From positions 19,334 to 83,333 of the forward strand of contig JAGWGA010000004.1 of NCBI GenBank assembly GCA_028867675.1: a stretch of DNA of 64,000 bases. Direction: 5' to 3'. Source of the stretch: Nitrososphaerota archaeon. GTDB taxonomy: Archaea; Thermoproteota; Nitrososphaeria; Nitrososphaerales; Nitrosopumilaceae. A model generated the notes under the pieces. It was not told the DNA's origin. It worked only from the letters and a program-made list of their open reading frames with translations, and ran no database searches. How positions within the stretch are numbered: position 1 is the stretch's first letter; each line of letters opens with the position of its first letter. The position numbers were made by a program, and so were the translations under genes. Positions 2,762 through 25,663 of the stretch are shown piece after piece.

Positions 2762-3217
2762 ATGAGTAAACCATATAGTAACATACTAGTTCCATACGAC
2801 GGTTCAAAATACTCTCAAAAAGCACTAAAGATGGCATTTGAGATGGCATCAGCATTTGATTCATCATTGAATCTAGTCAACGTAATTGATGTCAGCTCTG
2901 TTAGCCCACCTGGGAAAATTCACTCAAAGGAGTCCAAAAAAACATTAGAGGAGATAAAAAACTCGGTTAAAACTTCAGTAGAATTATACCTTCAAAAAAT
3001 TCAAAAAGATCATGGCGATTCAGGAGTCATGGTAAAAGGATTCGTCTTAGAAGGAGATGTGACTGGAAAACTGTTAAAGTTCATACAAGACCACAATATC
3101 GATTTGGTAATAATTGGAAGTAAAGGACTTTCAGGAGTTTCAAAGATAATGTCGCTTGGAAGCATAAGTAGAAAAATATCAGAATTGGCAAATTGTCCAG
3201 TAGTTATTGTTCGTTAA
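2762..3217 (+). CDS. Universal stress protein (UspA family)
   Basis: ILVPYDGSKYSQKAL N-terminus and GSKGLSGVSKIMSLGSISRKISELANCPVVIVR C-terminus. Confidence 0.95.
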   Translation: MSKPYSNILVPYDGSKYSQKALKMAFEMASAFDSSLNLVNVIDVSSVSPPGKIHSKESKKTLEEIKNSVKTSVELYLQKIQKDHGDSGVMVKGFVLEGDVTGKLLKFIQDHNIDLVIIGSKGLSGVSKIMSLGSISRKISELANCPVVIVR

Positions 3218-4197: not shown

Positions 4198-4554
4198 CTA
4201 GTCTATTCTTTTGTAAATTGCTTTGAAATCTTCTGCAATTCTATAGGCAATATTTTCTAGATGAGTAACTTCAGTCATGTTTGTTTTTCCGAGACCAATC
4301 TGTCTCATCATAGTATTACATTTGTGGACCTGCATATGATCACTGTCAAGATCTTTGTCAGACCAAGCCTTGAAACAGTCACTAAAATCAAGACAGAAGT
4401 TCAAAATTATTTTTTCCCAGTCCTTGTTTGACGTGGGATAGCCAATACCATGTGCAATCTCACGAAATTCGTTACTCTTGTCATTAAGTAACATCTTGAG
4501 TGATTTTTCTGCTTTTTGAGAATCGTAGTTATCTAGTGCGTTTGAGCCTTGCAT
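4198..4554 (-). CDS. Hypothetical protein, 118 aa
   Basis: Intact ORF with no antisense competitor; no family recognised. Confidence 0.6.
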   Translation of the reverse strand: MQGSNALDNYDSQKAEKSLKMLLNDKSNEFREIAHGIGYPTSNKDWEKIILNFCLDFSDCFKAWSDKDLDSDHMQVHKCNTMMRQIGLGKTNMTEVTHLENIAYRIAEDFKAIYKRID

Positions 4555-4660: not shown

Positions 4661-5053
4661 ATGAAAATCATGGTTTGTGGTTCCGTTGGAGGAGTCGGCA
4701 TAGCCAATATCTTGAAGATGCAAGAGTTTCTAGAAAGTAAAGGCTTTGAAACAGTTAAACAATTTTCCAAAGATACAGATTATTCTAAAATACATGATTT
4801 TAGAAAAAAACCATCTCTAGTAAAAAAGATAATTGGACATGATCTTGATTGTATAAAAAAAGCAGATGTTCTAGTGGTCTTGCCAGAGCCAAGCTTTGGT
4901 GCATCAATTGAGATGTATGTTGCAAAGAGTGCAAAGAAAAAAGTAATTTTATTTTCCATTAAACCCGTTCCCAGTCCTTGGCCTGTTGGTTTTTCAGATA
5001 TAGTAGTAACAAGTAAAAACAATCTGGTAAGAAAATTACATCAGATGATGTAA
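4661..5053 (+). CDS. Nucleoside 2-deoxyribosyltransferase-like fold protein
   Basis: MKIMVCGSVGG...CIKKADVLVVLPEPSFGASIEMYVAKSAKKKVILFS resembles the 'aDxvva...GaxxEi.yA...gKpvi' core of NDT-like proteins. Confidence 0.6.
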   Translation: MKIMVCGSVGGVGIANILKMQEFLESKGFETVKQFSKDTDYSKIHDFRKKPSLVKKIIGHDLDCIKKADVLVVLPEPSFGASIEMYVAKSAKKKVILFSIKPVPSPWPVGFSDIVVTSKNNLVRKLHQMM

Positions 5054-5059
5054 AGCTTG

Positions 5060-5081
5060 TTTTCAAATCCTTGTTTGAAAA
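5060..5081 (+). terminator. Perfect 8-bp hairpin just after the 5053 stop
   Basis: TTTTCAAA-TCCTTG-TTTGAAAA. Confidence 0.4.
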
Positions 5082-5121
5082 TTAAGATCAGTTTTAAATA
5101 ATTTGATGACGTATTATTAAT

Positions 5122-5203
5122 CGGGACGGAAACGCGGGGTAATGACCCGAACGTGACGTACAGTGGTATGACAGGTAAACACGTTTCCGTCCATTGTTGT
5201 TTT
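5122..5203 (+). ncRNA. Candidate structured non-coding RNA
   Basis: GGACGGAAACG (5124-5134) is the exact reverse complement of CGTTTCCGTCC (5182-5192). Inner CGGG/CCCG hairpin (5135-5138/5146-5149). TTTTAAATA at 5092-5100 lies about 26 nt upstream of the 5' end. U-rich tail TTGTTGTTTT. The locus lies between two convergent genes. Confidence 0.5.
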
Positions 5204-5352
5204 ACCAAAAAGATAATTTGAAAAAATTATTTTGTAATCATATTAAATTAACATAAATTATCTGAATTTTTCACGTCTGAAATTACACTTGGAAGAATTA
5301 TCATACTACAATAAATGAACTATGAGGCGTTTTCTGTGAACTGATGATTTAT

Positions 5353-6651
5353 TCATTTTATCCAAGTTAAAAACATGATTGCCACTGAAAATCCAATTAC
5401 TAGTACAGCCGTCCAACCCACAATGTTGCTTATTTTACTATTAGTATATCCTTCAAGAATTTTCTTATCATTAGCAATTTTCATAATTACAACAACAAGT
5501 GGAATAGAAATGACTCCATTAATTACAGCAGCATATATGAGAGCCTTAATCGGGTCAACATTTGAAAAGTTTATCCAAAGTCCTATTACGGTAGATGCCG
5601 CAATTATCAAGTAAAACCCCTTGGCTTGTTTGAATTTTTTACTTAGACCCTGCTTCCATCCTAATACTTCTGATAACGCGTATGCTGACGACCCAGCAAG
5701 AACCGGTATTGCGAGCAAGCCAACACCAATTACTCCGAAAGCAAAGATGATTTTTGCCAATTCGCCTGAATGTGGGAATGTCTTCACTAAAGGTTCCAGC
5801 GCCTTTGCAGCTTCGTCTGCAGTTGCAATATCTGCCAATCCATGAATATGAAGTGTTCCTGCAGTAGTGATTATGATAAACCACATTATAATTTGGGAAA
5901 ACGCCATACCTATGGCATTATCCATTTTCATACTCCTAAACTCTTTTTTTTGAATTTTTGGTTTACCTTCTCCAATGTCTTTAATTTTATTTTTTAAGAT
6001 ATCTTCTTCAGCTTCTTGAGAGGTCTGCCAAAAAAACAGATATGGCGATATGGTGGTACCAAATATCGCAACAAAGAGCATTGCAAATGCAGGAGTAAAC
6101 TCAATATGAGGAATTACAGTTGCAATCAATATGTCATTCCAATTTGCTCCAACAATAAATGCCGTAACCATATAGGCAAGTAAACTTAGAGTTAGATATT
6201 TTAGTAATGATAGATATTTTTTATATGGAACAAAAATTTCTGTACATATAATCATGACAGTAAAAAACACAGTTACAATCACTATTGGCAATTGTGGAAA
6301 AACAAGTTTTATTGATGCAGACATGGCGCCGATATCAGCACCAATGTTTATCGTGTTTGCAATCAAGAGCAGACTGACTATGGGATAGAGTATGTTTTTT
6401 GAATATCTTTTTTTTACAATCCCAGCCAATCCGCTTCCTGTGACTAGACCAATGCGGGCACACATTTCTTGAATTACGACCATCAAAGGAAATTGAAATA
6501 ACGCCATCCACAGAGTGCCAAAGCCAAATTGAGCCCCTGCTTGAGAATACGTAGCAATACCTGAAGGATCATCATCTGCAGCACCGGTTATCCAGCCAGG
6601 GCCTAGGATCTTGAAAAATGATTTTATTTTGAATAATTTAGAACTTGACAT
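5353..6651 (-). CDS. NRAMP-family divalent metal (Mn/Fe) transporter
   Basis: GPGWITGAADDDPSGIATYSQAGAQFG is the NRAMP TM1 DPG/DPS-type motif; multiple TM segments. Confidence 0.93.
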   Translation of the reverse strand: MSSSKLFKIKSFFKILGPGWITGAADDDPSGIATYSQAGAQFGFGTLWMALFQFPLMVVIQEMCARIGLVTGSGLAGIVKKRYSKNILYPIVSLLLIANTINIGADIGAMSASIKLVFPQLPIVIVTVFFTVMIICTEIFVPYKKYLSLLKYLTLSLLAYMVTAFIVGANWNDILIATVIPHIEFTPAFAMLFVAIFGTTISPYLFFWQTSQEAEEDILKNKIKDIGEGKPKIQKKEFRSMKMDNAIGMAFSQIIMWFIIITTAGTLHIHGLADIATADEAAKALEPLVKTFPHSGELAKIIFAFGVIGVGLLAIPVLAGSSAYALSEVLGWKQGLSKKFKQAKGFYLIIAASTVIGLWINFSNVDPIKALIYAAVINGVISIPLVVVIMKIANDKKILEGYTNSKISNIVGWTAVLVIGFSVAIMFLTWIK

Positions 6652-8069: not shown

Positions 8070-8121
8070 ACATTTTCTTCTCTACTGGTGCTATTTGACT
8101 ATGAAAAGTAAATTTCATTCA

Positions 8122-8130
8122 TGATAATCA
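8122..8130. promoter_or_regulatory. TGATWATCA motif upstream of the chimeric ORF
   Basis: TGATAATCA, 53 nt upstream of the 8069 start. Confidence 0.45.
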
Positions 8131-8964: not shown

Positions 8965-9024
8965 AACAAGATTCTCATTAGTGGTAATCAGTTAATTTTA
9001 AAGCATTATATTTTTTAGATTAGA

Positions 9025-19022: not shown

Positions 19023-19040
19023 AGATTATCATTTTTGATA
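19023..19040. promoter_or_regulatory. TGATWATCA-like motif followed by TTTTTGATA
   Basis: AGATTATCATTTTTGATA upstream of the CBS gene. Confidence 0.4.
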
Positions 19041-19083
19041 TTTACTCACTCAAGTCAAATACCATGAATTGTTAAACGTATTC

Positions 19084-23073: not shown

Positions 23074-23093
23074 GATTATCACATGTGATAATC
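23074..23093. promoter_or_regulatory. 20-bp perfect palindrome (two TGATWATCA-like units)
   Basis: GATTATCACATGTGATAATC; TATA-like CTTTATA follows about 26 nt before ATG 23133. Confidence 0.6.
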
Positions 23094-25570: not shown

Positions 25571-25663
25571 ACGTTCTATCTTAGTGGTAGATTATAGGCT
25601 TTTTACAAATCTCATTTTTGATAATAAGTTTCCATATATGGAATCATATTTATTCAATCACGT

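Follow-up and report, generated by a model that had tools for sequence, protein, structure and literature searches.

The DNA analysed here, a stretch of 64,000 nucleotides referred to as the window, contains a short G+C-rich element between two convergent genes. The locus raises the question of whether the element is the gene of an undescribed RNA and, if so, how such an RNA might be produced and act. The original prediction proposed a novel structured non-coding RNA, closed by a perfect 11-base-pair stem, preceded by an upstream promoter-like box, and markedly richer in G and C than its surroundings. The flanking genes have the convergent arrangement described in the prediction: the upstream gene (4661–5053, forward strand) encodes a 130-residue protein that belongs to no Pfam family, and the downstream gene (5353–6651, reverse strand) encodes an Nramp metal transporter (PF01566). 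The G+C content of the element was measured at 56%.

Fold and distribution of the RNA family

The RNA, located at positions 5122–5194 of the forward strand, folds into a predicted three-way junction. The closing helix P1 is formed by the strands GGACGGAAACG (5124–5134) and CGTTTCCGTCC (5182–5192), which make 11 perfect pairs around exactly 47 nucleotides, as had been claimed. The junction is completed by the hairpins P2 (5137–5148; GGGU-AAUG-ACCC) and P3 (5151–5176), in which nucleotides 5151–5161 pair with 5166–5176 and which contains internal mismatches and a C(NNNG)G loop. P1 is followed by a U-rich tract (5193–5206, the ATTGTTGTTTTACC region) that presumably acts as the terminator; many other genera have a run of U immediately after P1. 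The predicted transcript begins at approximately 5122–5124 and extends up to the U-rich tract, which gives a length of about 70 nucleotides in the genus of the window. The element alone has a folding energy of −32.6 kcal/mol (z = −4.64), and none of 200 shuffled sequences was equally stable. When the element was folded together with its flanks, the z-score was −2.78, and 1 of 200 shuffles reached the same stability.

Homologues of the element were identified by BLASTN in 13 other genomes of the window's genus and in one genome of another genus. A covariance-model search seeded at this locus, one of the checks named in the original prediction, extended the distribution. The search covered 252 genomes of the archaeal family to which the window belongs, taken on general grounds to be Nitrosopumilaceae-like ammonia oxidisers. 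The first model, built from 16 sequences, detected the RNA in 48 of them, and the second, built from 49 sequences, in 51, which represent 10 of 22 genera. The element in the window (5122–5193) matches with a score of 91.5 bits. E-values are below 1e-8 for nearly all matches and between 1e-4 and 0.06 for three weak ones; the other genomes have no match, and a clear gap separates matches from non-matches. In a sample of 400 genomes from the phylum, strong matches were found in members of the family only, and the sole match outside the family was in genome G601, with an E-value of 0.048. Matches in G100, G083, and G259, with E-values of 0.1–0.8, were dropped: those in G100 and G083 fall within a long reading frame of G+C-rich DNA and have neither the promoter nor P1 conservation, and that in G259 is isolated and weak.

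The alignment of 49 homologues contains 48 distinct sequences, in which 95.5% of the cells of the 25 modelled pairs hold standard base pairs; the values for the individual hairpins are 99.5% for P2 and 94.1% for P3. Compensatory changes, another of the proposed checks, are abundant. Two-sided changes that preserve pairing occur at 15 of the 25 pairs, a number reached by none of 500 shuffles, and include 9 of the 12 modelled pairs of P1 and 5 of the 9 pairs of P3. There are 111 compensatory cells compared with a mean of 24 in shuffled alignments, and the covariation score is 0.345, compared with 0.183 for shuffles and 0.03–0.114 for slid versions of the structure; the alignment was fitted to the covariance model and leans towards the structure. 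The switches in P1 are visible without the model fit, as in the strand pairs GACGGAAACG/CGTTTCCGTC, GACGGGAATGC/GCATTCTCGTC, and CACGGAAACG/CGTTTCCGTG. Individual P1 pairs change from G-C to C-G in 16 sequences, from A-U to G-C in 13, and from C-G to U-A in 13. The computational comparison thus establishes that the fold is conserved, and covarying secondary structure across homologues is a property of free-standing non-coding RNA genes.

The family comparison refines the internal features of the fold. The CGGG/CCCG hairpin of the original prediction can form in the single sequence; however, the family keeps a register shifted one position inward, in which GGGU (5137–5140) pairs with ACCC (5145–5148), and the consensus of P2 is GGGU-NNNN-ACCC. 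P3 closes with a C-NNNG-G loop. The UGAC segments pointed out in the prediction are present, but they are pieces of the loop side of P2 and of the strands of P3 that are not conserved in the family, and are therefore incidental. The helices are highly conserved, and conservation of unpaired bases is limited to a few positions, chiefly a U in L2 and a G in L3. The core varies in length from 65 to 75 nucleotides, with differences between near relatives that are not multiples of three, and reading frames are not conserved.

Thirty-one homologues carry an additional 5′ hairpin of about 24 nucleotides, P0, just upstream of P1. It is absent in the genus of the window, and the P0-bearing form, which is about 95 nucleotides long, is that of most other genera. 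One example is UGCAUUAAAC-UUCG-GUUUAGUGCA, and the loop is often of the UUCG type. An automatic scan recovered P0 in 30 of the 31 sequences, and single-sequence folding supports it in others. Because the 5′ hairpin was mis-registered between genera when aligned in one piece, the evidence for P0 is its recurrence in different sequences rather than a count of pairs. The three-way junction and the 5′ hairpin of other genera, as well as the operator and the stress-gene context described below, are additions to the first reading.

The RNA is previously uncatalogued and, in the genomes sampled, has no convincing occurrence outside the family. A search of Rfam 15 at gathering thresholds with the window and 12 homologous loci returned nothing, and a permissive search gave only chance matches, all of them outside the element. 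ARAGORN found no tRNA or tmRNA gene in the window. No description of the RNA was found in open-access papers. Together with the homologues in 10 genera and the compensatory changes, the lack of Rfam and tRNA matches supports the prediction of a novel structured non-coding RNA. A close parallel by description is Tan1, a 229-nucleotide abundant non-coding RNA of marine Group II Euryarchaeota (PMC5069720). Both are free-standing structured archaeal RNAs outside known families whose function is not known; however, Tan1 is three times longer and comes from another phylum, and the likeness is one of description.

Promoter and gene neighbourhood

The upstream box of the original prediction, TTTTAAATA at positions 5092–5100 of the forward strand, has the properties of a TATA box. 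Nearly all of the 49 homologues have a TATA-like match 25–30 nucleotides upstream of the structural 5′ end, and this distance is kept in both forms of the RNA, counted from P0 where it is present and from P1 otherwise. As the position of the box shifts together with the structural 5′ end, transcription very probably starts at that end. A promoter of its own at a fixed distance from the 5′ end is characteristic of a free-standing non-coding RNA gene, and the position of the promoter, like the fold, is established computationally. We are confident, from the sequence comparisons, that the RNA is transcribed; transcription would start from its own TATA promoter and end at the U-rich tract. Elsewhere in the same genome (L002:1500–1525), the extended box TAAATA.TTTGATGACGTAT of the RNA's promoter recurs in a promoter that precedes a small open reading frame.

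A conserved junction fold in which P1 is followed by U residues in many copies is also found in riboswitch and attenuator leaders. The RNA could accordingly be a cis-acting leader of the downstream gene, with P1 and the U residues serving as a terminator, and the next gene is co-directional and within 300 nucleotides in 26 of 46 copies. By contrast, a leader would occupy a consistent position in the 5′ untranslated region of a coherent set of genes, and in the other 20 copies, including that in the window, the next gene is convergent or distant. The downstream genes differ, encoding Usp, Hsp20, PNPOx-like, and other proteins, and a separate TATA-like box usually precedes those that are close and co-directional. 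Unlike such leaders, the RNA is not tied to one class of downstream gene. Its independence from its neighbours argues for a free-standing RNA and makes a role as a leader improbable.

The RNA is patchily distributed even within the genus of the window, and it is missing from approximately 80% of the family, including near-complete congeneric genomes; it is therefore dispensable. At one conserved gene junction, the spacer is 131–171 base pairs long in most of the examined relatives that lack the RNA, and 530–740 base pairs, including the RNA, in carriers. Such clean presence and absence between relatives at one locus, together with the perfect 11-base-pair inverted repeat, would be expected of a small non-autonomous mobile element of the MITE type or of an integration site. 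However, a mobile element would be expected in several copies, and the RNA is single-copy in nearly all carriers. The original prediction had named a match to a trivial repeat as a result that would count against it; the element is not a repeat and occurs once in its own genome. The compensatory changes inside the inverted repeat, the covarying internal hairpins, and the promoter at a fixed distance also speak against mobility, and a search of phage and plasmid records with the element gave no match. The mobile-element explanation is thus largely refuted and very improbable.

Operator palindrome and stress genes

In most copies from other genera, the palindrome ATTNTCA-N4-TGANAAT is positioned just upstream of the TATA box. 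Of the 48 copies, 34 have it with no more than two mismatches, compared with 3.3% of shuffled upstream sequences. Seventeen of the 48 have the perfect form, and none of the shuffles does. The presence of this putative operator in other genera is thus evident from the computation. In the subclade of the window, decay has left only one half-site of the operator. The right half, TTTGAAAAT (5074–5082, forward strand), contains TGAAAAT at position −47, the left half is degenerate, and the best nearby palindrome has four mismatches.

Genome-wide, the perfect palindrome occurs in two to nine copies per genome, compared with zero for a reversed control. It precedes genes for Usp, CBS-domain, Hsp20, thermosome, transporter, and PRPP-synthetase proteins, the names of which were read from the sequences, with Pfam run on the proteins of the window only. 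Palindromes with one mismatch or none number 10 in the window, compared with 1.24 expected, and the two perfect ones are ATTATCATTCATGATAAT (2650–2667), upstream of a Usp gene at 2762–3217, and ATTATCACATGTGATAAT (23075–23092), upstream of a CBS-domain gene. The enrichment is limited to the full palindrome, and the strict half-site TGAWAATYAT is not enriched in the window. Operator sites in the window are located at 2650–2667, 8111–8128, 8971–8988, 19025–19042, 23075–23092, and 25608–25625, and the operator is also present in genomes G013, G009, G270, G278, G041, and G178. The palindrome looks like the mark of an apparently undescribed stress regulon of Usp, CBS-domain, Hsp20, thermosome, and transporter genes across the family.

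Because the same palindrome precedes the RNA and the Usp, CBS-domain, Hsp20, and thermosome genes, the RNA is probably a member of this regulon, and would be made or silenced together with them. For the copy in the window, which has the right half-site only, membership is deduced from its relatives. Genes for universal-stress, CBS-domain, and Hsp20-like proteins are densely clustered around the RNA (window positions 1–32000). The neighbouring genes in the different genera are likewise of stress types. A Usp gene lies within 2 kb of the RNA in 10 of the 15 genomes examined, although each genome has only 10–19 Usp genes; these placements are not all independent. The gene at 4198–4554 on the reverse strand encodes a 118-residue protein that has no Pfam match and one to four paralogues per genome.

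Possible modes of action

A compact, strongly conserved fold that is present in one copy in nearly all carriers could belong to a housekeeping ribonucleoprotein, such as an RNA-modification guide or a processing RNA of unrecognized type. Archaeal C/D-box and H/ACA guide RNAs are likewise small, structured, and of similar length. However, the alignment of 49 sequences contains no conserved C (RUGAUGA) or D (CUGA) boxes and no conserved ACA 3′ of P1, and the UGAC segments vary in it. The absence of both types of box, already noted in the original prediction, therefore holds for the family, and a three-way junction replaces the guide pocket. The occurrence of the RNA in only 51 of 252 genomes and the stress operator in its promoter in other genera also argue against a housekeeping role, which we regard as unlikely.

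Free-standing, promoter-driven RNAs of stress regulons include many regulatory RNAs that pair with mRNAs. A trans-acting antisense function may run through the loops of P2 and P3, the U-rich tail, or the P0 hairpin, with the remainder of the molecule serving as a scaffold. By contrast, conserved unpaired stretches of the RNA are at most about two bases long, the loop sequences vary, and a search of the family alignment for a conserved accessible antisense seed found none. An antisense role is thus a minor possibility, although a better one than those of a leader or a housekeeping RNA. The conserved helices, the few conserved unpaired bases, and the lack of a conserved seed make protein binding likelier than antisense pairing. 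Binding of the compact three-way junction by a protein, with action in trans, is the most likely mode of action, to which we give slightly less than an even chance. The RNA may be the RNA part of a small ribonucleoprotein, or may sequester its bound protein under stress. The 118-residue protein was considered as a partner and rejected, since 169 of the 252 family genomes encode it, compared with 51 that carry the RNA, and its occurrence does not track that of the RNA.

The bacterial RNAs 6S, CsrB, and RsmY sequester proteins; they are compact, helix-rich, and environment-responsive, and act through protein binding. The RNA described here has the same compact, helix-rich character and would likewise be environment-responsive, and the analogy is functional only: there is no sequence or structural Rfam match, and the transcription machinery is archaeal. 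It is conceivable, as a tentative proposal, that the RNA is an archaeal counterpart of these molecules, and that in ammonia-oxidising archaea it binds part of the transcription, translation, or stress machinery and controls it. The complete chain, that of a free-standing non-coding RNA gene of a stress regulon with its own promoter and a product that binds protein in trans, has an about even chance of being correct in all its parts.

Ammonia-oxidising archaea are the dominant nitrifiers in many oceans and soils, and apart from the universal non-coding RNAs we know of few that have been described for them. With the covariance model and the operator, the expression and regulation of the RNA can be tested directly in carriers grown in culture. 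This new family, whose fold is well supported and for which a promoter is predicted and a stress regulon proposed, provides an entry point to RNA-based regulation in ammonia-oxidising archaea.
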